Shown here one piece after another: positions 14,679-34,799 of a stretch of DNA of 64,000 nucleotides; positions within the stretch are counted from its first letter, which is position 1, and each line of letters opens with the position of its first letter. The stretch comes from Solen grandis. Taxonomy: Eukaryota; Mollusca; Bivalvia; Adapedonta; Solenidae. Location of the stretch: positions 37,365,348 through 37,429,347 of the forward strand of contig CM037789.1 of NCBI GenBank assembly GCA_021229015.1, written 5' to 3'. The translations under genes and the position numbers were made by a program. The notes beneath the pieces were generated by a model, which did not search any database, was not told the origin of the DNA, and was given only the letters and a program-made list of their open reading frames with translations.

Positions 14679-14679
14679 A

Positions 14680-17769: not shown

Positions 17770-18042
17770 AGTAGTATAGGGTGGCACTATGGTACCAAGG
17801 TACCATAAATTTTTTTTTTATGGTACCGTGGTACCATAAATTTTTTTTTTTTGGTACTTATGGTACCGAATCTATAGTACCGAATGGTACTCTATATGAA
17901 AACAGAATCTATAGTACCGAATGGTACTCTATATGAAAACAGATTTATGTCTTAAAGGAGGACCACATCTTAACATTGACAATTGTAAAAATGTCCTTTC
18001 GAGACATTTGGGTTGGCCCTGAAAAGGGCCGTTTTGTTTCTT
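17770..18042 (+). repeat. Left terminal inverted repeat of the Polinton
   Basis: Near-perfect inverted copy of 34525-34799. From the end inward it holds GGTACC-containing palindromes separated by T runs, two tandem ~37-bp units with CTATAGTACCGAATGGTAC, and finally a histone-type stem-loop (18015-18030) that serves the leftmost gene. The repeat ends just before the stop codon region of that gene. Confidence 0.92.
18015..18030 (-). terminator. Histone-type mRNA 3' stem-loop, leftmost gene
   Basis: On the minus strand: GGCCCT, loop TTTC, AGGGCC, preceded by AAAAC and followed by AACCCA and then TCTCGAAAGGA. It starts 15 nt after the stop codon of 18045-18311. Stem, loop and spacing match the histone mRNA stem-loop (GGCYCT-TTTC-AGRGCC, ACCCA, purine-rich U7-type element). 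It lies inside the TIR, so both element ends carry one. Confidence 0.7.
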
Positions 18043-18044
18043 CT

Positions 18045-18311
18045 TTAGATTTCGGTGACATTGTCCACATCGTGCTTGGTTTCGTGACATCGTGTTCATC
18101 GTCACTGATTACGTGACATTTTTTCTGTTGTCTCAAATTCCTGATGTTCCATGAGCATATAGTCTCATTACATCATCTGATGTACCATGTTTGACAAAAC
18201 CAGATGGTATTCTGCAATATGGTCTTGCTGTTGTCTCCACTCATTGCGTTGTCGTTCGATCAACCCATCAATTCGTGGATAAATTCCACTCAGTTGCTGA
18301 ATTTGTTCCAT
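18045..18311 (-). pseudogene. Leftmost accessory gene, decayed copy of a Q-rich coiled-coil protein
   Basis: Corresponds to the intact 116-residue gene at 51249-51599 of the second Polinton copy. Start (CCATGG context, 18311) and stop (18045) are at equivalent places. This copy has lost two internal segments of tens of bases and has several single-base changes, so the frame is broken. The intact version is rich in Q, E, D, M and H, probably a coiled coil, with an acidic tail containing ISDDEHDV. Function is unknown. A TATA box 43 nt upstream and a histone-type stem-loop 15 nt downstream frame the gene. Confidence 0.6.
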
Positions 18312-18353
18312 GGTTGTGCAGCGAGAATATGACCGAATGCTTGATGCGGTGCG

Positions 18354-18510
18354 CTTTTATAGCCTTGAGGTGGATTGACCTACTTTCTACTGTTAGCGTA
18401 CACCAATCAGAGAACGTTAGTTCTATCCAATGATTCAAGTTTAACCTTGACCTGAGTTGGATAGCATTGCCTTTGGCCTTGACATTGGGGTGGATTGACC
18501 TACTTTTGTA
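18354..18510 (-). promoter_or_regulatory. Promoter module 1 (TATA, CCAAT, AGGTCA sites)
   Basis: Reading toward the gene at 18311: AGGTCAATCCA, TCAAGGCCAAAGGCAATGC, AGGTCAAGGTTAAAC, ATTGGAT, an ATTGG (inverted CCAAT) at 18402-18409, AGTAGGTCAATCCA and TATAAAAG (18354-18361). The order is the same as in the modules at 19667-19846 and 33941-34108. Confidence 0.6.
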
Positions 18511-18708
18511 TTGACATATCAGAATTGCTGTAAAAATTAAAACATTTCAAGCCGAATTTGTAGTAGTGATGACTTTTTTTTTGTAACATTTTTTATTTTT
18601 GTAAACTTTTTATAAAACATTGGATCATATTTTTAATAAAGAAAATTTAATGGAATTTGAAAATAATGGTGACAATTGAGGTATATTCTCTTTCGAGACA
18701 TTTGGGTT

Positions 18709-18724
18709 GGCCCTGATAAGGGCT
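18709..18724 (-). terminator. Histone-type mRNA 3' stem-loop variant
   Basis: Minus strand AGCCCT-TATC-AGGGCC: five pairs plus a mismatched base at the foot. It is followed by AACCCAAATGTCTCGAAAGAG, whose purine-rich part is the closest of all copies to the AAAGAG core of histone downstream elements. It starts 30 nt after the stop of 18754-19050. Confidence 0.6.
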
Positions 18725-18753
18725 GTTGTTTTGTTTTTTTCACAGAGTAGTGG

Positions 18754-19050
18754 TTACTCATGATTGTCTGTGAGTTTCTTCAGCAGGTATTCAACATGTT
18801 CTTTGGTGATGAAATGTGCTTCAATGATATTTAAGATATCATCGTAGTATAGTTCATGAAAGTAACATGCACTCAATTTGTCTATGATACTCCTGAGTGT
18901 TGTTGTTATTTTAAGCGTACGTTGGTATCGGGCTTGTAGTTTAAGCGAACGTTGGTGTCGGGCTTCTATTTTGTCCAAGTCAGATATGCAGTCGTTAGTT
19001 ATATGTGACTTATCCATAGCACAGTCTGAAAACGAATGGCATGAATTCAT
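18754..19050 (-). CDS. Accessory protein of unknown function, 98 aa
   Basis: Intact open frame with ATG at 19050. I do not recognise the protein. It is mostly charged and helical in character, with a basic/hydrophobic middle (RSLKLQARYQRTLKITTTLR) and an acidic C-terminal part; no signal peptide or membrane segment is visible. An A/T-rich TAAATAAAAG about 10-20 nt upstream is a weak TATA candidate. It sits between two stem-loop-terminated genes and has its own stem-loop downstream, so it belongs to the left-arm set of separately transcribed small genes. Confidence 0.6.
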   Translation of the reverse strand: MNSCHSFSDCAMDKSHITNDCISDLDKIEARHQRSLKLQARYQRTLKITTTLRSIIDKLSACYFHELYYDDILNIIEAHFITKEHVEYLLKKLTDNHE

Positions 19051-19118
19051 TTCGTTTGATACTTTTATTTACTTGGTTTGACAATTGTAAAAATATGTCC
19101 TTTCGAGACATCTGGGTT

Positions 19119-19134
19119 GGCCCTGAAAAGGGCC
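19119..19134 (-). terminator. Histone-type mRNA 3' stem-loop
   Basis: Minus strand GGCCCT-TTTC-AGGGCC followed by AACCCAGATGTCTCGAAAGGA. It starts 16 nt after the stop codon of the 19150-19631 gene. Confidence 0.7.
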
Positions 19135-19149
19135 GTTGTTTTTTTTTCT

Positions 19150-19631
19150 CTACTTCTTACTCTTTTTGCAATTTTGTATGTTACAATGGGCTCCAAGTCC
19201 AGTCTTAGAATGGGATCCACCATCATGCGGACGTTTGTTGGATGCTTCCACATTTTCCGGAGTGAAAGTGATAGGCACCACCAGCTTGTCTGTTTTCATT
19301 TTGATACGGCATTCCACTTCTACCATTCTCTTTTGCAATTTGATGAGGTTGTTGTTCACCTCTTTGAGTTCCCTCAGAATAGATTGTCCAACATATTTAC
19401 TGGCTGCGCTGCCGGTTGTTGTTGCACTGGTTGTTGCACTGGTTGTTGTTGCTGTACTGGTTGCTGCTGGTGTGGTGGAGGCTGAGGTTGATACGTTGGT
19501 TGGTAGCTGGGTTGGTACACCGGAGTCGGAGTGTACGACACTGATGCCTGGTTAGCAGCTGTCGTCAGCTCATACAAATCAGCAGCCTGTATGGCGTTGT
19601 TAACGAGATCAGAAGTTACGTAGCTTTCCAT
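19150..19631 (-). pseudogene. Accessory Q/P-rich protein with C-terminal coiled coil, one frame break
   Basis: Start ATG at 19631 in CCATGG, 36 nt below a TATAAAAAG box. The first ~70 residues are low-complexity with YQPSYQPTYQP and QQQPVQQ repeats. A single-base break near 19400 moves the remainder into another frame, which encodes a heptad-like helix (LRELKEVNNNLIKLQKR) and a K-rich tail up to 19150. Function unknown; Q/P-rich plus coiled-coil layout suggests a self-assembling or scaffold protein. The encoded glutamine repeats overlap a (TTG)-rich stretch on the plus strand, which may itself be unstable. Confidence 0.6.
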
Positions 19632-19666
19632 GGTTGGGTAGTAGGATTATGATACGATGCAGTGTG

Positions 19667-19846
19667 CTTTTTATAGTCTTGAGGGATTGACCTACTTTCT
19701 ACTGTTAGCGTACACCAATCAGAGAACGTTATTTTCATCCAATGATTCAAGTTCGACCTTGACCTAAGTTGCATAGCATTGTCTTCGGCCTTGACATTTG
19801 GGGATGGATTGACCTACTGACCTACTTTTTTTTTTCATAACTATAT
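19667..19846. promoter_or_regulatory. Promoter module 2, divergent
   Basis: TATAAAAAG (19667-19675, minus) faces the gene at 19631, and ACTATATAAG (about 19838-19847, plus) faces the gene at 19884. Between them lie AGTAGGTCAATCC, the CCAAT-type ACCAATCAG (19713-19721), ATTGGATG, AGGTCAAGGTCGAAC, TGTCAAGGCCGAAGACAATGC and two more AGGTCA sites. The block is the close inverted equivalent of 33941-34108. Confidence 0.65.
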
Positions 19847-19883
19847 AAGTGTTTTTTTTTTAAAGAAGAAGAATGAAATCACA

Positions 19884-20143
19884 ATGTCCGAACAAAACCT
19901 CTGGTTCGAAAAGTGTGGTGTGTGTTTAGAGGAGAGGGAGGAGGAATATATCACATAAACCAGTGTCAATGTCAGGACATTGTATGCGTCAGATGCTTCG
20001 CACGGCTTCAGAAGTGCCGTTTTGTAGGGCACCCTATCAAGTGTATGCCTGGCCTGCCTGTGTTTTCGCTAAACATGGGCCTACAGTGCGTCAGCCTATT
20101 ATGGCTATGGTTTGACCCTGATTATTCAGAGTTAGTAGGGTGA
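19884..20143 (+). pseudogene. Small RING-like zinc-binding protein, one frame break
   Basis: From ATG 19884 the frame reads MSEQNLWFEKCGVCLEE and stops near 19957. The neighbouring frame then continues with CQCQDIVCVRC, a further QKC and a KCMP, so the cysteine spacing resembles a RING finger (C-x2-C, C-x-C, C-x2-C, then later Cys pairs). If so it may act as a viral E3 ubiquitin ligase. It is the only plus-strand gene of the left arm, paired divergently with the 19631 gene and followed by its own histone-type stem-loop 35 nt after the stop. The ring is incomplete because of the frame break, so the assignment is tentative. Confidence 0.4.
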
Positions 20144-20177
20144 CTCCGAGTAATTCAGGATCACAAAAACCAAAAAC

Positions 20178-20193
20178 GGCCCTTTACAGGGCC
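20178..20193 (+). terminator. Histone-type mRNA 3' stem-loop on the plus strand
   Basis: GGCCCT-TTAC-AGGGCC, preceded by AAAAAC and followed about 17 nt later by TTCGAGAGGGAATA. It lies 35 nt after the stop of the RING-like gene. Its orientation is opposite to its left-hand neighbours, in step with the gene it follows. Confidence 0.65.
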
Positions 20194-20274
20194 ATCAAAC
20201 TATATTCGAGAGGGAATATATCACAATTGTTAATGTGTAAGATAAACAACAAGAAATCAAATCAGTTTTAGCCT

Positions 20275-20280
20275 TTTATT
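20275..20280 (-). terminator. Poly(A) signal for the leftward core gene block
   Basis: AATAAA on the minus strand about 175 nt after the protease stop. The stretch between holds only short AACAAACAATATG repeats. Core genes thus seem to use ordinary cleavage and polyadenylation, unlike the arm genes. Confidence 0.45.
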
Positions 20281-20454
20281 GAACTCTATGAACATTGCAA
20301 ACAAAATATGAACAAACAATATGAACAAACAATATGAAACAGTGCAAACACTATGAACAACAAGTACATAACACTTTAATGAAAGTAGAATGGGTCCAAA
20401 CTATTCGTCAGTAATTCAAAACACGCACGACCATCTCCAAACTTTGGTGGATGT

Positions 20455-21029
20455 TTAGCTGTGCATGTTTGTTGTGCTGATTACAGCAAATTGGAATCGT
20501 TCAAATTGAAGTGAGGTTGATCCTCTGTCCGGAATTTTACACACTTGTCTTCTTGCACGTTTGTACAGTTCTGAATAGTTCTGGTAAAACCAACATCCCA
20601 CATTGGAATCGTTCAAATTGAAGTGAGGTTGATCCTCTGTCCGGAATTTAGCTCTAAACACCCGTGTTAAATCACATCCTCGAACAAGAAAATGCAAAGC
20701 AAACAAACAATATGCTCCACACACAAACGTGTTGTATCCTTGAAGTCTCATGAGATTCCATGTATAGGGTCCATGTCTTTCCAAGAAACGTTGAATGTCA
20801 CAATGGAGTGGTTTTTGTCCATACGAATCAAAGTAGTAAGTCGATTTATCGTGAAAAACACAACCACCCAATGTTCACCAGGTTGAGTCGAATTGTGGGT
20901 ATTCACTATGTAAGCTTTTACAGTCTCTGGTCTACGTTGTGGTAGTTAATCTTTAGCACATACCACGGCATTCAAGGGAGCTAGAATTGGTGAATGATCC
21001 AAAATATACTGCAACTCAATCGTTTCCAT
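20455..21029 (-). pseudogene. Adenain-like cysteine protease (Polinton PRO), broken
   Basis: Maturation protease related to adenovirus adenain and Ulp1 peptidases. ATG at 21029 overlaps the end of the upstream gene by 14 nt. Catalytic elements are visible: GEHW (His), YFDSYG (acid), then LQGYNTFVCGAYC with the nucleophile Cys and an upstream Gln. They lie in different frames because of at least two single-base breaks (about 20948 and 20865). The C-terminal part carries a 48-bp local duplication. About 190 residues in total, normal for this family. It would process capsid and core proteins encoded just upstream. Confidence 0.8.
20490..20649. repeat. 48-bp direct duplication inside the protease gene
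   Basis: 20490-20537 and 20602-20649 are identical (start ATTGGAATCGTTCAAATTG). The 112-bp spacing is not a multiple of three, so the second copy is read in another frame and alters the protease C-terminus. Confidence 0.85.
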
Positions 21030-21438
21030 TTTCCCAATCTTGTTTAATGCGCCCTGCCCATTCGCACTCAAAAGCTTCCAATGGTGTGATCTTGTTCGTA
21101 TCTACACTAGCCTTTATATTTGCCCACATCTGATAAGCATCAGCTTTCTCAGCGCGTGTGAGATCCATGTTTTGTAGTTCAGCGTACCATCTTTCCATCA
21201 CTTGATACATGTCCAGTTTTTTTAATGCACTGTTCAGAAACATCTCGACCCACTCACTTTTGCTGCTAAACAAACATATGGGATGTTGGGTCTGACTGGG
21301 ATGATCAACAATGCAACCATAACAGTTTTCTTTCGCGATATCAAACTGGTTCAAACTCTTTACCATATCGTTTCGCCTATTCAAGTTGTAGATTTCTTCG
21401 TACAGTTGTTTGGCCAGCTGTTGTCCTGATTTGCTCAT
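21016..21438 (-). CDS. Conserved Polinton protein of unknown function, 140 aa
   Basis: Intact frame, ATG 21438 placed directly after the stop of the capsid gene. It contains a Cys pair in ENCYGCIVDHPSQTQHPIC, which could bind zinc, followed by a helical, Trp-containing region (ERWYAELQNMDL; EWAGRIKQDW). Proteins of this kind sit next to the capsid gene in related elements as I recall, but I know no function. Position between capsid and protease suggests a virion or assembly role. Confidence 0.7.
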   Translation of the reverse strand: MSKSGQQLAKQLYEEIYNLNRRNDMVKSLNQFDIAKENCYGCIVDHPSQTQHPICLFSSKSEWVEMFLNSALKKLDMYQVMERWYAELQNMDLTRAEKADAYQMWANIKASVDTNKITPLEAFECEWAGRIKQDWENGND

Positions 21439-21440
21439 GG

Positions 21441-22733
21441 TTAATAGTCTGTGATGACTTCTCTGAACCCGTTAATCTCTATCTGACTGTCGTATTCGGC
21501 ATACACAATCACATTGATGGGGTCACCAAGAGCTGCACGAAACTGAAGCTCGATTCGCAAGTTTCCCGTTTTTATAGGATGCAGCTGTCCCTCTTCTGAT
21601 CCTTGATCTGGCGTTAAGTCAATGCCCCAGTGTGTATCCTGCATGTAATCGTTCATTGTCAGACCCATGAAGCGGTTTAAACCGAGTGATCTCGTGGCTT
21701 GATACAGGGACATGTATGATCTCAAAATTTCTCCTGTTGGAAAGTTAGGCTGGAACGGCAAGTTGTGTGTCGTCTTCCGTCTACACTGACTTCTAACTTA
21801 GACAAGTTGAAATGTTGAAAATCAAATGGGTTGGTTGCCAGATCACCGTTCATGTCTGTATTCTTTACCAGGCCCAGAATGATACGTTTGGGCAACTGTC
21901 CTTGAAATAAATGATCTTCGATCTTTGATCGTTGGCCTGCAGGAATGGTGAAAGTTTTTTACCTCAGCTCGGCGAATTGGGATCTTCATGCCATGTTGAG
22001 CGATGGTCTGGTTTAAGTTGTTGGCCACTACGGGTAACAGGTCAACAGTCCGAACATTGAATCCAGCTTGAATTAACTGGATTTTTGCCTCTTCTCCAAA
22101 CAGGCAAAAACTGACTGGGGTTCTGTTGAGTCGCAGTCGTATCTCTACCCCATTGGGAAGGTACTTGTCTTGCAAACACAGGTCTAAATGCAGACGTCCG
22201 CACATTTCCAGAACACGACTCTGGTGGATACGTGTTCTTCTTTTTCTATATCCTTCATTAGCTCCCGCAACTGTATGCGCTTGCATATGACCCGCCGTGT
22301 CAGGACTCCACATTTCCGTAGCGTAGAGCTGTGTTGATTTACTGTCCGTAGAATAAGACAGCAAATTCTCAATGTAGGCCCGGTACGCATATGTGTCAGC
22401 ATTATTGGTGATCAGTTTGTTGTTCAGGTACACATCAATACTGCTAAACAAGCTGTGGAAGAAATTATTTACTGTGGATGTTTCTCCATCAGCAGCCAGA
22501 TTAGTGCCATCAGGTTGGACTACTTTGACTTTCAGGTACAAGTAGCTCTGGTTGATATCAGTCCACTTTTCTGATTGAGCAGGAATTACAAATTCAATGG
22601 GAGATGAATTGCTCAGTGCTGACACAGGATAATGTTCTGTCCACTGTGCATCTTGCATTGCTGTCATGGTAGGTGGGACATGTGGCACATCAAGTTCAGT
22701 TTTGCTACACTCACAAGAGCCGTGTTGCATCAT
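21441..22733 (-). pseudogene. Major capsid protein, double jelly-roll type, broken by two frame breaks
   Basis: Hexon-like capsid protein of the F54H12.2-related Polinton group. The N-terminal ~260 residues are intact (NSSPIEFVIPAQSEKWTDIN; SSIDVYLNNKLITN; GYRKRRTRI). A break in an A run near 21955 shifts the frame, and a second near 21765 shifts it again before the recognisable C-terminal jelly-roll (PNFPTGEILRSY; HWGIDLTPDQ; GNLRIELQF; INVIVYAEYD). The start is taken as ATG 22733, 6 nt after the stop of the core protein gene; the upstream in-frame TTG is less likely. About 430 residues, usual for this group. It would form the icosahedral shell. Confidence 0.85.
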
Positions 22734-22738
22734 GCGGT

Positions 22739-23101
22739 TCAATCAAAAATATCTAACGGTCGTGATGAGACTTTTCTTTTTTTGTTGCGTCTCCTTGCCG
22801 CGCTGAAAGCAGAATGATGTCGACGTTTGAAATCTCGAAGCTTTATACCTCTCAGAGTTTTCAGACCCACATCTTTCAACAATGTTTTACCCCGTTTCTT
22901 GATCACTGTCTTTACATTTTGGCCAGACAGAATATCTTTTACGGCTCCTATACCTTGTTTAAAGCCCTCTCTTTTCAGAGTCTTTAGTCCTGAGGTCACG
23001 ATGGGTTTCATCATGGGTAAGATGTTGCTGGCCATTTTCTTGAACATGGAACCCAAACCATATCCGACTTGTCGAGGTTGACCACGGTAAACTGGAATCA
23101 T
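22739..23101 (-). CDS. Basic virion core-like protein, 120 aa
   Basis: Intact. N-terminus YRGQPRQVGYGLGSMFKK, a motif shared by a small protein next to the capsid gene in many Polintons. A hydrophobic patch (ILPMMKPIVTSGLK) follows, and the C-terminus is strongly basic (RRHHSAFSAARRRNKKRK). Composition suggests DNA condensation or membrane interaction inside the particle, comparable in position and style to adenovirus core or pVI proteins, but homology is not shown here. Its ATG overlaps the stop of the upstream gene by ATGA. Confidence 0.7.
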   Translation of the reverse strand: MIPVYRGQPRQVGYGLGSMFKKMASNILPMMKPIVTSGLKTLKREGFKQGIGAVKDILSGQNVKTVIKKRGKTLLKDVGLKTLRGIKLRDFKRRHHSAFSAARRRNKKRKVSSRPLDIFD

Positions 23102-23940
23102 CGTGTCTTTCTTTTAAAATGAAGCTTCACCATCGACTTCCCGTGAGTGAAATGAACTGATTCCCCTGTGTCACCAGTTATATTGATACTGATCTCGTTG
23201 AAATATGATCTGCTGACAGGTATGTAGTGTAGATTTAGAAATTCAAAGTGCATGTGTGGATTAGACCCTGCTTTTGTTTTTGTGTCAAATGGCACAACGC
23301 GTAAAATGGGTGCTTCGACATCCCCTATCAAAGTGTGTTCTGCCAGATCGGTATATACAAACAAACGGTTCATCTTCGTGAAGAGGTCCACACCGTACTT
23401 GAATCTGCTGTTGTCTCTGTCCGGAAACACCACAGTACTTCCCTCTCCTCCAAGTTTCGTAAGGAGAGATGGATGAAGTTCTAAGCCGATTTTTGTTCCA
23501 CTATTACCGGTAAACTTGACACGTTTTGACAAGCCGGAAAAATCAAGTCCAAATGTGAGGTTTCTTTGAGTTAAAATTGTTTTAGTGGCTTGTTTAATAG
23601 CCTTGTCCATTTCGTCAGTGAGATGTTGTGGTGACGCATAGATGCCTGCAGGAATGCAAAGGGGTAATGCCCATTTTTTGCCTTCTAATTCACACCCGTT
23701 TTTCACTTGTGAAAAGGCTGCCGCCAGTTCTGGATCTTTAGTCACGACGTAGAATTTTCCTTCCTCCTCTTCAATGTTTTTGACTTGTGTGGGAACGATC
23801 ATTTCCACGAGAGCCACTTCCCAATTTTGTTTGTCGACATCAATGGTTTTTGTCAGCTTGGTTCTAAAACAGCATTGTGTGTTGTTTGGGTACAATGCCA
23901 TCGAACTATCACTGATGAGAGTGATGTAGAAAGAATTCAT
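23098..23940 (-). CDS. Probable minor capsid (penton-like) protein, 280 aa
   Basis: Intact frame. The N-terminus MNSFYITLISDSSMALYPNN followed by WEVALVEMIVP is typical of a conserved structural protein that accompanies the F54H12.2-type capsid gene. The remainder is beta-rich (ILRVVPFD; HFEFLNLHYIPV; EISINITGD), consistent with a jelly-roll fold. In the Polinton gene set the minor capsid protein forms the five-fold vertices; assignment to that role is by position and character, not by a clear motif. The gene overlaps both neighbours by four bases (ATGA). Confidence 0.65.
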   Translation of the reverse strand: MNSFYITLISDSSMALYPNNTQCCFRTKLTKTIDVDKQNWEVALVEMIVPTQVKNIEEEEGKFYVVTKDPELAAAFSQVKNGCELEGKKWALPLCIPAGIYASPQHLTDEMDKAIKQATKTILTQRNLTFGLDFSGLSKRVKFTGNSGTKIGLELHPSLLTKLGGEGSTVVFPDRDNSRFKYGVDLFTKMNRLFVYTDLAEHTLIGDVEAPILRVVPFDTKTKAGSNPHMHFEFLNLHYIPVSRSYFNEISINITGDTGESVHFTHGKSMVKLHFKRKTR

Positions 23941-24185
23941 GATTTCTTAAATTTTAAACTTGGGTTTGGAAGAATGTATCCGATAGAAGTACTCATCAGC
24001 AGCAACCAAAGTTCACGATCTGGACTGTTGAGACACAGGTTCACTAATGACACGATGACGATGATAAAGATGATCACAATCTGTGTCAAGAAAGTGATTC
24101 TGTTGTTTGGTACCTCACTTTTTCCTGTCTGTATACTGTTGTCTACCTGAACACTGCTGGTATCGGACTGAGACATGGTGTTCAT
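23937..24185 (-). CDS. Small two-TM membrane protein, 82 aa
   Basis: Hydrophilic N-terminal ~28 residues, then a transmembrane helix (ITFLTQIVIIFIIVIVSLV), a short loop with NSPDREL, a second helix (WLLLMSTSIGYIL) and the ending PNPSLKFKK. Short two-TM proteins with a GYxLPNPSLK-type end recur next to capsid genes in related elements as I recall. It might sit in an internal membrane or assist entry or egress. TATA-like sequence lies just upstream (24190-24202). Confidence 0.65.
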   Translation of the reverse strand: MNTMSQSDTSSVQVDNSIQTGKSEVPNNRITFLTQIVIIFIIVIVSLVNLCLNSPDRELWLLLMSTSIGYILPNPSLKFKKS

Positions 24186-24189
24186 GACG

Positions 24190-24202
24190 TTTATACTTTA
24201 TA
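24190..24202 (-). promoter_or_regulatory. TATA-type promoter for the capsid gene block
   Basis: Minus strand TATAAAGTATAAA ends 5 nt before the ATG at 24185 and overlaps the integrase stop codon. It could drive the run of tightly packed genes TM, minor capsid, core, major capsid, unknown and protease. Confidence 0.35.
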
Positions 24203-25291
24203 CTAAATGCGATTTTGGAATCCAACTGTTAAACTTTTTAGGATATCCAAGCCACTTGACTTTCACTTCTTGAAAAGTTTTACCGCCTACACGCCTTGTA
24301 CGCCGATCAAGAACTGATTCCACTTCGTATAGCTCATCATCTTTTATATGTTGAATTTCATCCCTGTAGAAGGATCCGGCGATAGTTTCTCCAGCCAAGT
24401 CTTCCAGTTTTACGGTCAATGGATGTGTTCTGTTGATGCGAACCACTTTGAACAATTCCATTGTCCAGTTGGGTAGATAGCCTTTGGCAAACGTTTGCTT
24501 GGTTTTATTGATGCGCACTATATCACCCACTTTCAAATCAGTTGATTTCTTTTTTTTCTTTTGATGGTTGCCATACAATGTCTTGGTGACTTCATGCTCA
24601 TTTTCTCTAGACACAGATGCAGGGGTACGTCCGATGCTTCGATGAAAACGATGATTGTAGCCATGTACCAATATTTTGCAGTACATCCACATAATGACGG
24701 GTCTTGTGATGAGTAAAATATTTCCACATTCTTGATTTAAGCGTACGTTGAAAGTTCAACAATACTCGCTTAGTTTCTGGGTTTTCAGACGTGAAGAAAT
24801 GAATGTCATGCTTGTCTAGAACTTCTGAAAGTCTTTGTTCAAAAAATTCTCGGCCTTTGTCTGTTTGCAAAGAGAGTGGTTTCGGCCTTCTTTTAGAATA
24901 GACTGAAAGGCTTGGATGAGCGTCTTTCCAGTTTTGTCAATGATGGGTATTACCCAAGCATATTTTGAAAAACACATCAATGACACATAGTAAGTAGCGA
25001 TATGGTGAATTCTCTTTGTACATACGTTGCATATCTGCGAGATCAGCTTGCCATTGATGATCGATACCTCCTACCACAGTCTGTCGACGTCGAAATTTTC
25101 GTCGTATTGTTTTATGCAACGTGTAGGTTCTTTGACTTCTCAACCAGTCTCGTACATCCTCTAAAGTGATAGATTTCAAATGTTTTTTTTGCTGCCTTGT
25201 AGAGTCCCTGAATTCCTCCAAAACTCGTAGGATTATCAGTATCATAGTACAGGTGACGAAGTAACGTGTCCTTCTTTAGTAGGCGTCCCAT
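24198..25291 (-). pseudogene. Retroviral-type integrase with C-terminal chromodomain (Polinton INT), broken
   Basis: DDE integrase that inserts the linear element genome. ATG at 25291. Visible in order: RTYTLHKTIRRKFRRRQTVVGG (N-terminal region) and IDHQWQADLADMQ (first Asp), then a break; QTDKGREFF (second Asp) and a shifted catalytic Glu region; YNHRFHRSIGRTPASV; and an intact chromodomain (YEVESVLDRR; VKVKWLGYP; NSWIP). At least three frame breaks (about 24960, 24880 and 24770) separate these. Total about 360 residues, normal for Polinton INT. The chromodomain suggests targeting to methylated histone. Confidence 0.85.
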
Positions 25292-25338
25292 GACGAATGG
25301 GCTAATATCTCCTAGGGTTCTTCCTTTTTAATAGGTTT

Positions 25339-27167: not shown

Positions 27168-27359
27168 ATGAGTCGTGCAGCTAAGGTGAACCATTTCACC
27201 ATCTCTGTTAATCCTGATTCTACCAGCTCTTGTCGTTTGTTGGGTTCTTTTCCCGACTCAACGATTCTAGAGCTTGATCACTGTATGTGGTGTGTTTTCC
27301 ATGGTAGCTGTATCCTTAATGATGATCGGGTGTCATGTTCCTATCATTTTATACTGTAG
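27168..27359 (+). CDS. Uncertain small plus-strand ORF, 63 aa
   Basis: Open frame from ATG 27168 in the only gap between the ATPase end and the GGFLG gene start. It has three C pairs or near pairs (LDHCMWCVFHGSCI) but no recognised family. No promoter or 3' signal is evident, and it opposes the surrounding leftward genes. It may be chance; it is listed because nothing else explains the 220-bp interval. Confidence 0.2.
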   Translation: MSRAAKVNHFTISVNPDSTSSCRLLGSFPDSTILELDHCMWCVFHGSCILNDDRVSCSYHFIL

Positions 27360-27995
27360 TGTAGACGATCGGTCCTCGATCTTCACCTGTTACCCACCGA
27401 TGGAACACATCTGTTCTTAAACGATTCTGGTCGGGTGTTCTTGGATGAAAGTCAATGATAAGATATCCATGAGGTGTAGAGGTTGCATCTTGATACGCCA
27501 TCACCAAATGGGGTAGTTGTATTTGGTTCGCAAGTGTTTTGATCTGACCTTTATCTCTTGTGTTTTGAAATAATACCATGTAGTGTGCATTCAAGCTGAT
27601 GGTACGACTAGCCTTGGATTGTTGGAAACATGTTTTGTGTGATGTAAATGACAGTGGCATTTCTATGGTGTCCCTTTCGCGTGAACCATAATTTAATTTC
27701 TCCTCATCTTTTTTCCTAACATATCATCAAATATGACGAGGTGTGTAAGGTTGTATCGTCTACTATCTCTTCATCATCCTCAGGGATACCCTGAATGAAT
27801 TTGATAGCTTCACGTTCTTGTAACTGTGCGTAGGCACTTTGCCATTCTTTGTAACACCAGACGATGTGTTGTGGTACCACATGAAATAAATCGGTTTTGT
27901 ACTCAATAAGTTTTTTACAAATTGAGTTTTTCCTGAACCACTTGGCCCGAGATGAAAATGTTACTAGGATGTTGAAAAAGTAAACTACTTTCCAT
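27349..27995 (-). pseudogene. Genome-packaging ATPase (A32/FtsK-HerA type, Polinton ATP), broken
   Basis: Motor that pumps DNA into the capsid. Taking ATG 27995, the frame reaches a glycine-rich P-loop that is split by an apparent single-base loss near 27950, so the Walker A lysine and threonine lie in the next frame. Downstream comes WCYKEWQSAYAQL and an acidic Walker B region that is also frame-disturbed (27700-27760). The C-terminal part (27660-27349) is intact and typical: CFQQSKASRTISLNAHYMVL, FQNTRDKGQIKTLANQ, HGYLIIDFHP. About 215 residues, usual for the family. Confidence 0.8.
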
Positions 27996-28032
27996 GATGG
28001 TCCAAGAAATAATAACAGCATTGACATGACAA

Positions 28033-28046
28033 CATTTTATTTTATA
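28033..28046 (-). promoter_or_regulatory. TATA box for the ATPase gene
   Basis: TATAAAATAAAATG on the minus strand, about 40 nt upstream of the ATPase start at 27995 and just after the stop codon of the upstream gene. Confidence 0.45.
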
Positions 28047-28048
28047 CA

Positions 28049-28954
28049 TCATAGCAAATAAAACACTTGAACAACATCAGTCAAAAATGTAAAACTATGA
28101 CACACATCATGAATCAGTCTTTCTTTATACATCATCCATTCCGGCAATATCATGGTATATCCCATAGCATTTAAAGCCATGCACACTTCGTCAAAAAGTT
28201 CCTCGGATTGTCTTAACGCCTGTTCTGATTGAATTCCAAGTACACGCACAGCCAACAACACAGCTCTACGCCATGGATTCCGAATTGGAGTTATGTTTTT
28301 TTCCTGTAGTGAAGTATTTCCCATGTTTTGACTTCTCATTCGTCTTGCAAGTATCTGCGTAGTATCTTATTTTGTAGGTGTCCCAGAGGGATTCGTCTCC
28401 CAACTCAAACCTTTCTAAGTTGTTGAAATTGGGATGTTGAAAGAACTGTTCACTAGGATTTGGCCTCGTTTGTTTGAATATTGCGCTGCACTGTTTACCA
28501 AAAATGTTAAACACTTGTTCACAAGTGATATGTTCTGGAGTCAGTAAAATGGCACGTATATCCTCTGGTGTGTCGTTCCGGTGGTTAATCGCAAATCTGA
28601 GATACATACGCTCATCAAAACGGTTCAGTTTCTCCACTGTATCAATGTTTAGGGTATCAATGTATATGTACCACACGTCAGAGATCAGGTTGCGTAGCAG
28701 ATTGTAAATGGCATAAATCCGTTGAAAGACCACACTTTTATAGCTGCTTGGAAGATTACGCCCTCGTACATCACTAAACATATCATAAACTTGGTTTAAA
28801 CAAGAGGGATCCTTCATCGTCTGGTGAATTATTCTGTTTCCAACGCGCTGTGCCCAAGTAAAAAATAACTCGTTGCAAAATGCAGCAGGTTTCTTATTAG
28901 CTTCAACGAGATGTCTGTAGATCATCTGTTGTATTTTTTACTGGTAGAGTGTTC
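28049..28954 (-). pseudogene. Large protein of unknown function between PolB and ATPase, broken
   Basis: A start at ATG 28954 with a break in an A run near 28935, or ATG 28925, leads into a 219-codon frame (FCNELFFTWAQRVGNRIIHQ; ERMYLRFAINHRNDTPEDIR; HITCEQVFNIFGKQCSAIF). Near 28370 it shifts to a frame that continues MRSQNMGNTSLQEKN, NPWRRAVLLAVRVLG and ends at 28049. The sequence is helical, without membrane spans or metal motifs. I do not recognise the family. Its place next to the polymerase suggests a replication or DNA-binding role, but this is only context. Confidence 0.5.
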
Positions 28955-29017
28955 ATCGTGAATCTCCGTATGTTTCCACCACCGTTCAGGCTATGCACAC
29001 GACCACAAGCCAACTGG

Positions 29018-32000
29018 TTATGACGGTTGGTAACCGTACGGCACTGTCTTATATTTGTCCACGACCACGCGTTTTGTATACACTGAGCGGAAACGTCTTG
29101 GTCTGTGTCTCACTGATCACTTTGCGATTTCTATGTCTCTTGATTCGGGATCATATTCGATGACTGTCTTGTAATGTTTGCGATCTTGTACACAGTTGAC
29201 CATAGTCTTAAAATTGACTTTTTGACTAGCATTGTAATCCAAAGTGATGCCTTTTACTTTGCATTTCTGATGTCGATTTCCTTTTTCATCGATATATTCA
29301 TACCCATAGTTTTTTTGGCCCTAATGCCACGAATTTGACAATGCGTCCATGTGGTACTTCATCTGTCCACTTCCCAACTGGCTCTCTTCGATTGGAATGT
29401 TGTACTGGTCAGGGTCATAGATGTACATACAACGTCTGTGTCAAAATACAGTACCCGATCTCCAAGTTTTTCCAACTGGGTGTAAAGTTCAAGTCGAGCA
29501 TAGGACGTAACGAAGGCAGCTACCACTGGATTTGAAGATGAATGGGGCTGTGTTGCGTCTGTTTCATCCGAGTAATTCACCAAAATGAAGTTGTCATGAT
29601 CGAAAACAGCACGGTGACATGACGGTCGGAGAGCAGGTTATACAACCGGTTCACCTTAGTCACATACTCGGTTTTGGTTTGAACATTGTTTTGTGCATTC
29701 TTACCCCCCAAACAGTTCAACATGGTTTTGGCAAACGCTCTTTTTCCTTTGTTCTTTTTCACGTTGTCGAGCCAGATACCCTCTATCTGAAAGTAATTCT
29801 GTTTAAAGCGTGCTTCATCATCTTCTGTTTTTACCCAATTAGGGTAACCACTTGCTTCTTGTTTCAATTTCAAGTATTTGTTAATATACTGTTTATACAC
29901 ATCTTTACTCCATGTGTCCCAGTGCCAGATGTGGAAGACGTCTACCAATTGGTATCCTAACTCAAGAGCTTTGGCTATTTCCACATGGGTCCAGGTACCT
30001 GTCAACATGCGTTTGTACAGAGTGTGATTGCATTTTTCACACTCTTCCTCAGCACAGGTACGGCACAGTGTAAAGACCATTTTCTTGTTACAGTGAATAG
30101 GTAGGACTGGTAGCCACAGGTCTTGTGGTGGCAATACACGACATTTGATGAGTCCCTTGTACATTCCAATGTTGTTTATATCAATCATCTCTTGACTTAA
30201 GATGTCGGGATGTCCCACGGGGTATGCTTTGTACTTGTTCACGAATGGATACAGTGAGCAAATGTCAGCATACTTAATTTCTTCCTTGGTGGTTGTATCC
30301 ACTTCATGGTATAATTGAACGGCATTGGTTCGTCCACCAAACAAAGCATCCCGAGGTAAAATAGGTTCTTGGAGGGGAAAGAAACGGTTCACAGTATCTC
30401 TGTATTCTGGTTCAATCTTGCATTTCTGATCAAAGTCACATTCCCACATTACAACTGTGTTGTAACCTTGTTGAGACAAGTCTTTCAACCGAAAGGTTGT
30501 GGCATTGTATAACTGCTCCATAGTTTGAAGTGTGTAACCGTTCACACTGTCTCTCCTTGGGTAACATTTTGGACATCCATGTGTCCAGCACCCCATGAAT
30601 TCGTATACGGTGTTCGTCCCTTTGTGGAATCCGTCAACGTAATAGGGTCCAATTTGTACTTCACCTCCATTTAATGCATGGCGAATGTGCTTATTCTCAA
30701 TGGAAGCAGTTGTTTCTAACCAACGAATCCCTTTGATTGAGTATCGAGTTTTGTTTGGATACCCGTCATCAGAGATTACAGCCAAGGTCTTTGGAGGCAT
30801 TGAATTTTTACGCCAAGCTTTGTTGCACACTTGAGCTAGAGTGGTCGCTTCCAGGAACGGATCAATTTGGTCACTGGCCAACAGTTCTTTCCTAAACTCT
30901 CCACAACCTCGTCTCAAGATGTCCACATCTGATTTGCAGTACTTTTGCATTTCTAACTGAAAGTGAAACACAGCCTTTTGTGCCACTTTTACATTGTACC
31001 ATTTCAGAAACGCTTCACTTTTGTCAGGTTTCATGCTGTTGGGTCTGTAAAAATGTACGGGGAGATAGTCTCCAATGTAGTCTTGGTATTCATCCGTGTT
31101 GGCATAAAATGGAAACCATCCTTTTGCCATCTCAGTCAATCCAAACGTGTCGGGGAAATCGGACAAAGGCATGTTGAGAAAACTCAGTGAGTCGATGAAT
31201 CTCACTTGATGGGCTTTCATCATTAGAATTTTGCTTCCATTCATGATCAATTTTGGTTTGGCTGTATCATGTGTCAGTAAGTGCCTCAAAATAAACTGTG
31301 CATCGTATCCTTGTGAGTTGTGAGCAATCACTGTGGTACCTTTGTGACTGGGTTGAAACAGCCATGTACAAAATTCTGACAAAGTGTTGTTACCACGAAA
31401 TATTTTTTCTCTAGGCTCATCCACAGCTTCGCATTTCTGACACGGGTTTTTCATGGATTGACACATACAGTCTCCACAAGCACGTTGAGCAACACAAAAG
31501 TTTGGTATATGTTCACCCAAATCAAATCGACACTCAAAGTCAAAGAAGATGAAAGGTACAGTCGGTGACTTCATGTTCTCTGGTTCTTTGTACGTGGGGA
31601 TATAACACTGATGTTCTGCATCCACAACTTTCTTGCAATACTTGCATTTTTTAGTGCCAGGACAGAGATGGTTCTTCTTTGTACCCACAACCATTTGACC
31701 ACAGGTCTTGCATTGCCATACACTTTCACAGATGTTTTTTGTAGATTTTCCTGGTTTCGCTTTGTGCTGATCAAAACATTTCTGACTATGAAATGTTCTA
31801 CCACAGTGACCACATGGAAAGAATCCTTCTTTTGGGCATAGTGTCAAGGCGTAACACAGACAAATATTCTTACACCAGTGAGCTTCTCTGTTGTTATAAC
31901 CGTAGTTACAGTGTTCACAGAAGTAGCTGCATCCCAGGAAACCAGTGATTGATGTAATGCAATCATAATGTTTATCATGATGATAAATGTGAATCACTTT

Positions 32001-32833
32001 GCTTTTGTCTGTCAGAGGTGGGTGATTGAACAACACGTCCATTTTCTCAAATTGTGGCCACACTTTGATCACATAGTCTGGATAAAGGTGGGCTTGAATC
32101 TTCTTGTATTCTTCTATACCACAAGGCTGATTTGGACTAATGCCCACACTATCTAACAATGTCTTGGCTTCTTGGCTTTGAAGAAATTTTGCAGATTGTC
32201 TCATCAAATTCCATCGCTTCTTCCAGGCTGTATCGTCCGTTTTATTGAGTTTACATATCCCTACCACAATTGATCGTGCCAAACACATACTGTCGTGAAC
32301 AGTGTCTATCTTTATCATACTTCGTTTGACTTTGGACATGTTCTCAATGCTTAGTGCGATCCAAAATACTTCATTTCGTTCAACTTTTTGTTCTTCCACC
32401 TCCCTCGGGCATAATGACATGTGTCATTTCTAACTGGAGATGCCCGTCATGAATCTCAAACTTGTGGTTGCTTTGTGATACTTTCTCTATTTCGTTCAAC
32501 AGCGTATCTCCTGAAATGTGTGTTGCATTCCCGAATGGAATGTGGATACCAAATGCTAGGTCAGGATGATTTATGGAGATACGAATTTGATCGTTGTCAT
32601 TGACCCGTGCTTCTCTGTATAACTGTTTCACCATGTCATTGAAAAGTTGATGTGTAAATTCAAACGGTTTTTTTATATCTTTCAAATGTAACATCGTACA
32701 CGTGGCCATTCGTTTTAAACTTTCTTGAAGTTCTCTGTGACCGTGGCTGTATGGAATAATATTCCCGTATATCACTCTTGGTCTTTTTTGCAGGTGGCTC
32801 ATCATCATCGCTGCTTTCTTCACTACTCGACAT
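29018..32833 (-). pseudogene. Protein-primed family B DNA polymerase (Polinton POLB), broken
   Basis: Replicates the linear genome from a protein primer. ATG 32833 opens an acidic/basic N-terminus; a break in an A run near 32790 and another near 32400 lead to a 947-codon frame. In that frame: Cys/His-rich zinc-ribbon-like region (about residues 164-272), ExoI FFDFECRFD (~292), ExoII AHNSQGYDAQF (~366), ExoIII YCKSDVDIL (~494), motif A YADICSLYP (~716), motif B KTMLNCLGGK (~898). A further break near 29580 precedes motif C (YFDTD), after which the frame shifts again; the C-terminal CKVKGI region follows before a last break near 29080. Roughly 1270 residues overall, usual for POLB. Confidence 0.92.
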
Positions 32834-32968
32834 CGTTGTGATTATAAGTAAGTGAACAAAGCTTTTTTATACATCTAAGCTCCGCCCACCTGATCTCAGG
32901 CCTATAAAGTGCGGTGTGACCCGTCCACTTCATCACTCTCAAACCTGATTCAGACTGCTCTGTTCAGA
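32834..32968. promoter_or_regulatory. Divergent promoter between polymerase and zinc-knuckle gene
   Basis: TATAAAAAAGC (32861-32871, minus) faces POLB 28 nt upstream of its ATG. CCTATAAAG (TATAAA 32903-32908, plus) faces the zinc-knuckle gene 60 nt upstream of its ATG. A GC-box-like CTCCGCCCACC lies between. The AGGTCA module of the arm genes is absent here. Confidence 0.6.
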
Positions 32969-33505
32969 ATGACCTGCAATACATTTGAGTTCTGGGTGAA
33001 AGGACAACTACAAGCTATCAGTGACAAGCTGATCAGACTAGAAACAGAAAGACAAGTGACATGCTACCGCTGTCAGGAAAAGGGGCATTATGCATCGGCA
33101 TGTACGAAGAAAGCACCTCAAACAGTACGGGTGTGCTACCGTTGTCATGAACCGGGACATTTTGTTTCTAATTGCCCAAAACCTACAGTGTGCTACAGTT
33201 GTCACGAACTAGGCCACTTTGCATCCGCTTGTCCTAAGAAAGGGATGAATAGTACTGTACCTACAGTAAACGCACAGGTGGACAGTGAAATGCAGAAAAT
33301 GGACGTAGTTGAGACAGTGACACAGACGGACAGTGATGCTGAGCTACTAGAGGCTGCCTCTGAGTTGGAGAAACCTACCGTAAAACCCAAGAAACGCAAG
33401 AGAAGCGTCAACACATGCATCGTGTGTCCTGAGCCTCACCCATCAACAAGCAATACAGAGTGTAACCGACCAGCTAAGAAGCGAAAAATGACATTTGAAC
33501 ACTAG
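32969..33505 (+). CDS. CCHC zinc-knuckle protein (Gag nucleocapsid/CNBP-like), 178 aa
   Basis: ATG 32969 was chosen because a GTG 60 nt upstream in the same frame lies immediately downstream of the TATA box, where it would hardly be in the mRNA. A short helical N-terminus (FEFWVKGQLQAISDKL) precedes three C-x2-C-x4-H-x4-C knuckles: CYRCQEKGHYASAC, CYRCHEPGHFVSNC and CYSCHELGHFASAC. An acidic linker and a basic nuclear-localisation-like KPKKRKRSV follow; a last CIVCPEPHPSTSNTEC may be a degenerate knuckle. It should bind single-stranded nucleic acid. Intact, unlike most neighbours. AATAAA at 33600 serves as its 3' signal. Confidence 0.8.
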   Translation: MTCNTFEFWVKGQLQAISDKLIRLETERQVTCYRCQEKGHYASACTKKAPQTVRVCYRCHEPGHFVSNCPKPTVCYSCHELGHFASACPKKGMNSTVPTVNAQVDSEMQKMDVVETVTQTDSDAELLEAASELEKPTVKPKKRKRSVNTCIVCPEPHPSTSNTECNRPAKKRKMTFEH

Positions 33506-33599
33506 ACTTGAAAAAAAAACAAAGTTGTGTTATGTTCATTATTTGCTGTATGACGCACGTTTAATTCATTGTTACTGACACATGTTTGTTGTTAAACAC

Positions 33600-33605
33600 A
33601 ATAAA
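33600..33605 (+). terminator. Poly(A) signal of the zinc-knuckle gene
   Basis: AATAAA followed by an A run, 95 nt after the stop codon at 33505. No histone-type hairpin exists on this strand here. Confidence 0.55.
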
Positions 33606-33655
33606 AAAAAATCATATGACAATTGTATTAGTTATCCTTTCTACATCATTGTAAT

Positions 33656-33671
33656 GGTCCTGAAAAGGACC
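33656..33671 (-). terminator. Histone-type mRNA 3' stem-loop with compensatory base change
   Basis: Minus strand GGTCCT-TTTC-AGGACC: relative to the other copies one C-G pair has become T-A on both sides. GTAGAAAGGATAAC follows about 20 nt later. It starts 20 nt after the stop of 33691-33906. Confidence 0.7.
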
Positions 33672-33690
33672 GTTATTTATTGAGAAGTGT

Positions 33691-33906
33691 CTAGCACTCA
33701 CTCAAATACAAATACCGCCAGTAATGCCTGCTGGCTTCTGGATATGCCAGGTAAAACCCTGACAAATCCGGGTACAATGGCAAAGGGGGTAAACTCGGGT
33801 ACAAGTTGACACCCTCTTCCTTTATACCCTCTTCCTTGACTTCTACTTTCTTCTCCTTTCGTAACGCCTTCCTTGCACGTCGGAATAACTTACGAAGGAA
33901 ATTCAT
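33691..33906 (-). CDS. Small basic protein with two LYPxL late-domain motifs, 71 aa
   Basis: ATG 33906 is preferred: the open frame extends upstream without an ATG into the promoter, and a TATA box (33941-33946, minus) lies 35 nt before it. N-terminus is strongly basic (MNFLRKLFRRARKALRKEKK), then a short acidic stretch, then NLYPSLPPLPLYPDLSG with two LYPxL motifs, the type of late domain that recruits ALIX in retroviruses. The C-terminus is Tyr/Trp-rich. A role in ESCRT-mediated egress is inference. A histone-type stem-loop follows. Confidence 0.6.
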   Translation of the reverse strand: MNFLRKLFRRARKALRKEKKVEVKEEGIKEEGVNLYPSLPPLPLYPDLSGFYLAYPEASRHYWRYLYLSEC

Positions 33907-33940
33907 GGTGAAGAATGAATACATACACAGCATTACACAA

Positions 33941-34108
33941 TTTATAGTCAAGAAAAAGTAGGTTAGTAGGTCAATCCACCCCAAAATGTCAAGGCCGAAG
34001 ACAATGCTATCTAACTCAGGTCAAGGTCGAACTTGATTTATTGGATGAAAAAATAACGTTCTTGGTGTGCGCCAACACAAGAAAGTAGGTCAATCCGGTA
34101 CTATAAAA
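33941..34108. promoter_or_regulatory. Promoter module 3, divergent
   Basis: TATAAA (33941-33946, minus) and TATAAAA (34102-34108, plus) face outward to the genes at 33906 and 34149. Between them, in the same order as modules 1 and 2: two AGTAGGT(CA) sites, TGTCAAGGCCGAAGACAATGC, AGGTCAAGGTCGAAC, ATTGGATG, AACGTTC, TTGGTGT and AGTAGGTCAATCC. Confidence 0.65.
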
Positions 34109-34148
34109 CAGTGCACATACTCTATACTTTATTATTCATGATTGAAAC

Positions 34149-34487
34149 ATGAGACCGTACACACGTAGGTCCACCCCAGACTTGCTAAAATTGTTCCTCG
34201 ACAGTCCCAGCTATGAGGAACAAGAGAGCGACCCAGACAGCTATCACGACCAAGTTGATGTGTATGATCTATATGTCACTCTTACAAAAAGGGGAGATCT
34301 CCCTAATTACCTGTCAGTTACCTTTGAAGATGTACCATCTACCCTACTACAGGGATCGGGAGACAGCCTGAACTTCATAGGTGACAAGGATCTAACCCGT
34401 TGTCATTTGCATCTCCTTGCAGGATGGATGAAGAGATATGTCATGGGATGGGACTGTCAAACGTGTGGTATAGACCACAATATGTGA
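34149..34487 (+). CDS. Rightmost accessory protein, 112 aa, unknown
   Basis: Intact frame from ATG 34149, 41 nt downstream of TATAAAA. Basic start (MRPYTRRSTPDLLKLFLD), a strongly acidic stretch (EEQESDPDSYHDQVDVYDL), then a mixed helical C-terminal half ending CQTCGIDHNM. A pair C-x2-C near the end is too little for a zinc finger. No family recognised. It is followed 49 nt later by the TIR-borne histone-type stem-loop, mirroring the leftmost gene. Confidence 0.6.
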   Translation: MRPYTRRSTPDLLKLFLDSPSYEEQESDPDSYHDQVDVYDLYVTLTKRGDLPNYLSVTFEDVPSTLLQGSGDSLNFIGDKDLTRCHLHLLAGWMKRYVMGWDCQTCGIDHNM

Positions 34488-34524
34488 TGGGACTGTACAA
34501 CATGTGGTATGGACCACAATTCAT

Positions 34525-34799
34525 AAGAAACAAAACGGCCCTTTTCAGGGCCAACCCAAATGTCTCGAAAGGACATTTTTGCAATTGTCAATGTTAAGAT
34601 GTGGTCCTCCTTTAAGACATAAATCTGTTTTCATATAGAGTACCATTCGGTACTATAGATTCTGTTTTCATATAGAGTACCATTCGGTACTATAGATTCG
34701 GTACCATAAGTACCAAAAAAAAAAAAATTTATGGTACCACGGTACCATAAAAAAAATAATTTATGGTACCTTGGTACCATAGTGCCACCCTATCCTACT
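34525..34799 (-). repeat. Right terminal inverted repeat of the Polinton
   Basis: Near-perfect inverted copy of 17770-18042. Same order from the end: GGTACC palindromes with A/T runs, two tandem 37-bp units, then the stem-loop. Differences are limited to a few substitutions and homopolymer lengths. Confidence 0.92.
34537..34552 (+). terminator. Histone-type mRNA 3' stem-loop, rightmost gene
   Basis: GGCCCT-TTTC-AGGGCC preceded by CAAAAC and followed by AACCCAAATGTCTCGAAAGG. It lies within the right TIR, 49 nt after the stop of the rightmost gene. Confidence 0.7.

Follow-up and report, generated by a model that had tools for sequence, protein, structure and literature searches.

A 64-kb window of the genome of the bivalve Solen grandis (contig CM037789.1, positions 37,365,348 to 37,429,347) contains a decayed Polinton, here called element 1, and the beginning of a second one, element 2 (Table 1). 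Element 1 has the Polinton hallmarks of terminal inverted repeats (TIRs) and a 6-bp target site duplication, CTCAGA, read from its flanks at 17764-17769 and 34800-34805; its inverted arms (17838-18042 and 34525-34729) are 99% identical. It encodes a family B DNA polymerase (PolB; Pfam PF03175, E 4e-37) and, at 24198-24692, a chromodomain open reading frame (ORF) recognised by Pfam, the ORF pieces adjoining which gave no rve match. Its six accessory genes are g1 to g6, on which two sets of host histone signals are observed: a 3' set follows all six, and a promoter motif is found with five of the six. Both sets match the histone genes of this host in sequence, position and strand, and are maintained over many copies of the element.

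Seven hairpins of the type found in histone mRNAs had been reported in the initial annotation, six in element 1 and one in element 2, and all were recovered at the same coordinates. When the window is searched for GGCCCTNNNNAGGGCC with up to two mismatches, nine matches are obtained, comprising these seven hairpins and two with a broken stem (53674 and 59182), while 100 shuffled windows searched in the same way give a mean of 0.35 and a maximum of 2; the seven hairpins are not chance. The stem described as GGCCCT/AGGGCC, with loops TTTC, TATC and TTAC, is fully paired in six cases, but the hairpin at 18709 reads AGCCCT-TATC-AGGGCC, with A-C as its first pair. Other copies of this g2 stem in the genome (L037:1183 and L042:9608) are fully paired, as GGCCCT-TATC-AGGGCC, and have the TATC loop in common with the window copy. 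The compensatory change from C-G to T-A at 33656 (GGTCCT/AGGACC) is present, the same stem and loop being found in host H1, and AACCCA follows five of the seven hairpins, in line with its reported occurrence after most of them.

All seven hairpins are in the sense orientation, on the strand of the gene that they follow, as had been claimed. The distance from stop codon to hairpin, given as 15-49 nucleotides (nt), is indeed short at every site, but the range is 14-49 nt and the frames before 18015, 19119 and 20178 are broken. It measures 29 nt at 18709, 15 at 19119, 34 at 20178, 19 at 33656, 49 at 34537 and 14 at 51219; the genes before 19119 and 20178 are in pieces, of which the stop closes just the final one, and 18015 has the same TAA 14 nt upstream as 51219, with the frame above it broken. 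The purine element expected downstream is found in all of 15 representative modules, which were picked by hand from Polinton and host sequences, and its GARA core lies between +13 and +15; in 14 of the same 15, CA[AG]TTG or AATTGT stands between +29 and +33. In element 1 the box CAATTGT begins 30-32 nt past the hairpin at all six sites. The seven hairpins are not independent of one another, because a single terminal repeat supplies three of them (18015, 34537 and 51219) and 19119 closely resembles it; 18709 is also similar to that repeat, and the modules at 20178 and 33656 are unlike it away from the boxes. Among the proteins preceding them, a Pfam scan of g2, the g3 pieces, g5, g6 and the g1 copy of element 2 matched no histone domain.

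The scan with the Rfam Histone3 model (RF00032) proposed in the initial annotation recovers six of the seven sites of the window at E < 0.01, with 18709 absent from the list, but the gathering threshold is reached by only one of the seven, that at 51219 (34.3 against 34 bits). A covariance model, R1, was also built from seven host histone modules alone. Applied to the window it lists all seven hairpin sites, 18709 included, with E values from 1.1e-12 to 2.8e-8 and nothing else at E <= 1, so that no match in the window follows any core gene of element 1. On 23 other loci R1 gives 29 matches at E <= 1, of which 25, at E < 0.01, lie in Polinton, Cys-rich-ORF and SGNH loci; the remainder are a match in L046 (E 0.052) and three with E values of 0.21-0.81 that were read as chance. 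A simpler module scan of a reversed control of 514,792 nt returned no matches.

Table 1. Features of the two Polintons in the 64-kb window, with model scores for the 3' modules
Feature	Position	Strand	Remarks
Polinton element 1	17770..34799	.	17,030 bp, decayed; terminal inverted repeats begin AGTAG[T/G]ATAGGGTGGC
Module after g1, left TIR	17977..18040	-	stem-loop 18015-18030, GAAAGGA, CAATTGTC; R1 62.3 bits, E 1.1e-12; RF00032 31.0 bits
g1 promoter	18345..18504	-	AGTAGGTCAATC at 18373 and 18493, both in gene direction; TATA box
Module after g2	18670..18734	-	stem-loop 18709-18724, loop TATC, GAAAGAG, CAATTGTC; R1 45.0 bits, E 2.5e-8; absent from RF00032 list
Accessory gene g2	18754..19050	-	98 aa; no Pfam match
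Module after g3	19079..19144	-	stem-loop 19119-19134, GAAAGGA, CAATTGTC; R1 55.1 bits, E 7.3e-11; RF00032 31.7
Accessory gene g3	19150..19631	-	frame broken; pieces 19374-19631 and 19150-19326
g3/g4 divergent promoter	19665..19850	.	AGTAGGTCAATC at 19685 and 19807 (minus, g3 direction); CCAAT, TGTCAAGGCCGAA and TATA boxes
Accessory gene g4	19884..20143	+	frame broken; Cys-rich, RING-like by eye only
Module after g4	20168..20232	+	stem-loop 20178-20193, loop TTAC, GAGAGGG, CAATTGTT; R1 44.9 bits, E 2.8e-8; RF00032 25.3
PolB ORF	29577..32420	-	947 aa; Pfam PF03175; without hairpin
CCHC zinc-knuckle gene	32969..33505	+	without hairpin; AATAAA at 33600
Module after g5	33617..33681	-	stem-loop 33656-33671, T-A pair (GGTCCT/AGGACC), GAAAGGA, CAATTGTC; R1 51.4 bits, E 6.1e-10; RF00032 30.7
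Accessory gene g5	33691..33933	-	80 aa
g5/g6 divergent promoter	33935..34110	.	AGTAGGTCAATC at 33965 and 34084 (plus, g6 direction); TGTCAAGGCCGAA, GGTCAAGGTCGAA and TATA boxes
Accessory gene g6	34149..34487	+	112 aa
Module after g6, right TIR	34527..34590	+	stem-loop 34537-34552, GAAAGGA, CAATTGTC; R1 61.3 bits, E 1.9e-12; RF00032 31.0
Polinton element 2	50976..51644	.	beginning only; interrupted by assembly gap 51645-51744
Module after g1 copy, element 2	51184..51244	-	stem-loop 51219-51234, GAAAGGA, CAATTG box lost; R1 55.4 bits, E 6.1e-11; RF00032 34.3

The histone genes of the host itself serve as the reference for these modules. A profile search of the host assembly (1.32 Gb) with RF00032 at E <= 0.001, in which the best 75 of 260,318 candidates were scored, gave 52 matches among the candidates scored: 29 in histone arrays, 14 in the Polinton family, six in a repeat with an SGNH-like ORF, two after a Cys-rich ORF, and one (L059) with no gene recognised upstream, for which the nearest modules are those of host histones. 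The 29 histone matches fall in two arrays, on C3 and C1, and at 18 of them an H3, H4 or H2B gene was read, in most cases with an intact frame that stops 26-32 nt before the hairpin and in a few (L013, L025, L033) with an interrupted one. The others were assigned by their position in the array, supplemented in seven loci by the sequence of the C3 H2B module. Modules of H1 and H2A were found in the same histone loci, with 36 and 33 nt respectively between stop and stem, giving a host range of 26-36 nt. Twelve of the 14 Polinton matches were assigned by similarity to module-free pieces of element 1; L061 was assigned via its upstream piece L066, which carries a relative of g6, and L062 by a match spanning the end of g1 and the module together.

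All five host histone classes (H1, H2A, H2B, H3 and H4) end in the same three-part module of stem-loop, purine element and CAATTGTC-like box. It consists of GGCCCTTTTTAGGGCC (GGTCCTTTTCAGGACC in H1), a GAAAG-type purine element 13-15 nt past the stem-loop, and CAATTGTC or a near variant of it (CAGTTGTC in H1, AAATTGTC in H2A, CAATTGTT in H3). Hence the proposed histone-type 3' architecture is supported: each part of the module has its counterpart in the histone genes of this host, and the model derived from them recovers the seven sites. The position of the CAATTGTC-like box, approximately 30 nt past the stem-loop and beyond the purine element, is an observation in its own right that applies to all five host histone classes (L009-L016, L024-L033). 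In the modules of both host and Polinton the purine element also tends to occupy the loop of another small hairpin; this is offered as a lead and not as a claim. The total stem of this second hairpin is 66 bp against a null of 34.0 (standard deviation 3.6; 0 of 3000 as large), or 24 against 13.5 for host modules alone (0 of 3000), several of the modules being related; in minimum-energy folds the purine core lies in the second-hairpin loop in six of ten modules, those of H1, H2A, H4 and g5 being the others.

The promoters of the accessory genes share a motif with host histone genes as well. A search of the window for AGTAGGTCAATC with up to one mismatch gives six sites, all of them exact and all within the g1, g3/g4 and g5/g6 promoters, so that the motif lies upstream of five of the six accessory genes. 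In the host it is found between -82 and -91 relative to the start codon, exactly in H2B and with one mismatch each in the H2B of the second array, in H2A and in H4, amounting to four of the five histone promoters read, a set that does not include H1. It is located shortly before the TATA box, in the direction of the gene, in g1, g3, g6, host H2A and host H2B, and the copy near the TATA box of g4 and of g5 has the opposite direction. The exact promoter motif is found 12 times in 99.6 kb of Polinton loci and not at all in 87.0 kb of other host loci. Across the genome AAGTAGGTCAATCC occurs 1390 times, compared with once in the reversed control; of the 76 listed promoter motifs that fall within the range of the hairpin list, 69 are no more than 1.5 kb from a hairpin (null mean 0.44, maximum 4 in 2000), and 80 of the 100 listed hairpins have such a motif within the same distance. 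The promoters add independent support for the histone-type reading.

The abundance of the module was also studied across the genome, where the exact hairpin GGYCCTTTTCAGGRCCA occurs 1716 times and its reversed pattern never, with GARAG following at the right distance in 1483 of the 1716 instances. Statistics on spacing and stems refer to the first 100 of these hairpins, all on C1. Eighty-three of them have another no more than 16 kb away (null mean 5.9, maximum 18 in 2000), and the commonest spacings among the matches listed are those of the window: nine pairs separate a g4-type from a g5-type stem by 12.9-13.8 kb, and in the band from 0.75 to 0.93 kb, 16 of 18 pairs combine a T-A with a C-G stem, as g5 and g6 do. 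Stem pair 3 is C-G in 71 of the 100 listed, T-A in 27 and mismatched in two, under a search pattern that admits only C or T against G or A. When the first 100 full modules are classified by their flanks, 46 are of the TIR type, 19 of the g5 type, 19 of the g4 type and 15 of the g3 type, and one is that of host H1. The enrichment across related elements on which the initial annotation had made its claim depend is thus found, within this one genome. Aligning eight copies of the g4 site gives invariant columns at 13 of 16 positions in the hairpin, 32 of 76 upstream, 13 of 30 in the purine and CAATTG segment and 22 of 69 further downstream; this contrast appears to favour conservation of the hairpin only weakly, because rows L005 and L008 differ upstream and L058 is poorly preserved. 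Loci L046/L047, which tblastn with PolB (32-36%) made a candidate for a distant Polinton, were rejected as such, since a mean DNA identity of 77-88% indicates a poor-quality or decayed stretch of the same family.

The same module is carried by other sequences in this genome. Two of the RF00032 matches follow a Cys-rich open frame of 142/143 codons. On contig C687 (L034/L035) this frame, of 142 codons and 114 aa from the first ATG, stops 29 nt before a full histone module, and its neighbours are dense ORFs on both strands that include a 745-aa helicase, an ankyrin ORF and a RING ORF. In the PDB the helicase is similar to chains named 'Replication origin-binding protein' (E 1.8e-4), and PF02399, which we take to be the herpesvirus origin-binding family, is found in 10 of its 18 listed relatives, a Pfam scan of the helicase itself giving no PF02399 match. 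If confirmed, C687 would be a second, unrelated nuclear DNA virus using the module. A near-copy of the Cys-rich gene on C5 (L007/L038) has neighbours that are not viral-looking. Six further RF00032 matches belong to a repeat family with an SGNH/GDSL-like ORF (L018, L021-L023, L044/L045, L050-L053, L064); in L018, L022 and L023 this ORF is followed at 20-23 nt by a module of the histone type that includes CAATTGTC. The SGNH repeat is a third case of the histone-type module, beside the Polinton and C687.

It is therefore considered highly probable that accessory genes in this Polinton family are equipped with the control signals of the host's replication-dependent histone genes. Several observations weigh against this, or against what might be built upon it. 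The copy in the window is decayed, with the frames of g1, g3 and g4 broken. AGTAGGTCAATC is missing from the host H3 promoter, and upstream of g2 the best match in 300 nt has five mismatches. When Polinton and host histone promoters are compared, the longest exact match exceeds that of all 100 shuffles in only five of 15 comparisons, namely H2B with all three Polinton regions (14-15 nt), H2A with one and H4 with one. An AATAAA at 33676 adjoins the g5 hairpin on its upstream side, and poly(A) use at g5 is therefore possible. The genome counts, moreover, reflect maintenance and abundance and not independent origins, because the copies share descent, and all host comparisons concern a single host genome. 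Where the initial annotation proposed S-phase, non-polyadenylated processing of the histone kind, the signals do match those of host histone genes, but cleavage at the hairpins, the lack of poly(A) and the coupling of accessory transcripts to S phase are what we infer from them.

Two sets of searches also count on this side. The host U7 small nuclear RNA was not identified in a genome profile search with RF00066 in which the best 65 of 388,410 candidates were scored; the sole match (29.7 bits against a threshold of 34, E 0.10) was rejected because its Sm site is atypical and its hairpin rich in T/A. A U7-like pattern, consisting of the CTTTC pairing end and an Sm site, gave 120 matches compared with 237 in the reversed control, and seven candidates among the 100 listed were set aside, four being one repeat and two another, with U7 scores not exceeding 13.4 bits. 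In the viral_contigs set, two hairpin patterns gave 0 and 3 matches and no relative was found: L001 passes the cut-off of the simpler module scan through a chance GAAGG, lacks the CAATTG box and is not listed by R1, and L002 and L003 reach an R1 E value of only 0.21, so that all three were read as chance. A search of the same set with PolB returned 103 stretches, none of which was confirmed.

Could the hairpins be signals in DNA, serving as sites of replication, packaging or recombination, with their likeness to histone ends incidental? Such a role would be favoured by the three hairpins within terminal repeats, two belonging to element 1 and one to element 2, but the other four are internal, and all seven are sense and 14-49 nt past stops. 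Furthermore, the single-strand context (5' AAC, 3' A, purine element and CAATTG) is the same as in host histone genes, and the promoters match those of the host histones too, making a DNA-level role extremely unlikely. Hairpins directing the ends of transcripts are known in mimiviruses and virophages, where they vary in sequence. Generic termination or polyadenylation of this style would account for the presence of a hairpin near the stop codon of every accessory gene, but not for a sequence, loop, flanks and purine element of the host histone type, nor for the lack of R1 matches after the core genes of element 1; there is hardly any probability left for it.

Another explanation is that pieces of a histone gene were picked up and copied along without function. 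A host origin of the module is plausible and the genome copies share descent, both of which agree with passive capture. By contrast, the three boxes are retained in the TIR-type, g4 and g5 modules although the sequences around them differ from one module to the next, and the third stem pair is matched in 98 of the 100 listed stems (71 C-G, 27 T-A, two mismatched). The genes that the modules follow also differ, none of the proteins scanned matches a histone, and for five of the six genes both ends match, which is not expected of a single captured piece. Passive capture hence seems very unlikely, and the use of host histone control signals by the accessory genes is the reading adopted in what follows.

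Histone mRNAs recruit SLBP and the U7 small nuclear ribonucleoprotein (snRNP), are cut a few nucleotides past the stem, receive no poly(A) tail and are limited to S phase. The signals described here suggest that the Polinton ties the expression of its accessory genes to the DNA-replication programme of the host. Host factors would transcribe these genes together with the histone genes, and SLBP and the U7 snRNP would cut the transcripts a few nucleotides past the stem-loop, yielding mRNAs that are non-polyadenylated and limited to S phase, while core genes such as PolB would keep ordinary poly(A) ends. Early or host-directed functions might in this way be timed to the period when a protein-primed DNA polymerase can carry out DNA synthesis in the nucleus. 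A bolder proposal, to which we give about an even chance, is that the accessory genes act as pseudo-histone genes within the S-phase histone programme, probably at the histone locus body and without poly(A), and that unrelated selfish elements of the same host, among them the SGNH repeat family and a virus encoding a helicase of the herpes origin-binding type, have converged on the same 3' module. If the Polinton does use histone signals in this manner, a multicopy mobile element would be placing them on non-histone genes, breaking the rule for such signals, and DNA viruses or transposons would have a route by which to time their genes to host DNA replication. The copies would also provide a natural test set for the requirements of SLBP and U7, and standard poly(A) RNA sequencing would overlook these viral genes.

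The decay of element 1 also shows in its PolB ORF, which at 947 aa is shorter than the six best full-length relatives (1249-1342 aa); at least 100 relatives were found, the named sources among the matches listed being Mercenaria, Pinctada, Ruditapes, Mya and Araneus. An ORF at 21843-22733 resembles a double jelly-roll capsid protein by eye only, with no match in Pfam or PHROG. An AATAAA on the minus strand at 20275 marks the end of the core block, and from their signals both this block and the CCHC gene look like ordinary poly(A) genes. Among the accessory proteins, no relatives of g6 were found at E <= 1e-3, and the g1 protein of element 2 (51249-51615) contains VIVISDDE, which by eye looks like a SUMO-interaction-like motif. 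Around the elements, units of about 452 bp are repeated in a large tandem array at 2885-16550 of the window; two tRNA-like genes of equal score (35476-35547 and 36003-36074) lie in a duplicated segment immediately right of element 1; and ORFs of the long interspersed nuclear element type with endonuclease and reverse transcriptase domains (42373-50429) end shortly before element 2. Assembly gaps of 100 bases are located at 17072-17171, left of element 1, and at 51645-51744, within element 2.

In comparison with known systems, the Polinton modules agree with the metazoan replication-dependent histone 3' end (RF00032) in their 6-bp stem, 4-nt loop, flanks, purine element and short distance from the stop, and differ in following non-histone genes and in the extra CAATTGTC-like box, which they have in common with the host histones. 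In the bivalve Lucina pectinata, the passages of PMC6210712 concerned give all histone mRNAs a palindrome near the stop codon, with purine-rich elements near it only in H1_A, H2A_X, H3 and H4, whereas here the purine element is read in H1, H2A, H2B, H3 and H4. Among the non-coding RNAs of polinton-like viruses (PLVs) and virophages, the relevant part of PMC12220804 counts six histone 3' untranslated region stem-loops, without interpretation there, and none in cryptophyte PLVs; the matching passages of PMC11071296 and PMC11071308 make no mention of histone-type ends. No description of a Polinton, virus or transposon with histone stem-loop ends was found in the open-licence literature searched, mainly titles and abstracts. 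Element 1 resembles the Polintons/Mavericks and adintoviruses in its TIRs, 6-bp target duplication, family B polymerase and chromodomain ORF, and departs from them in the histone-type promoter motif and 3' ends of its accessory genes. While the histone 3' signal is already known, its use by a mobile element, together with a matching promoter motif, would be a new variation on it.

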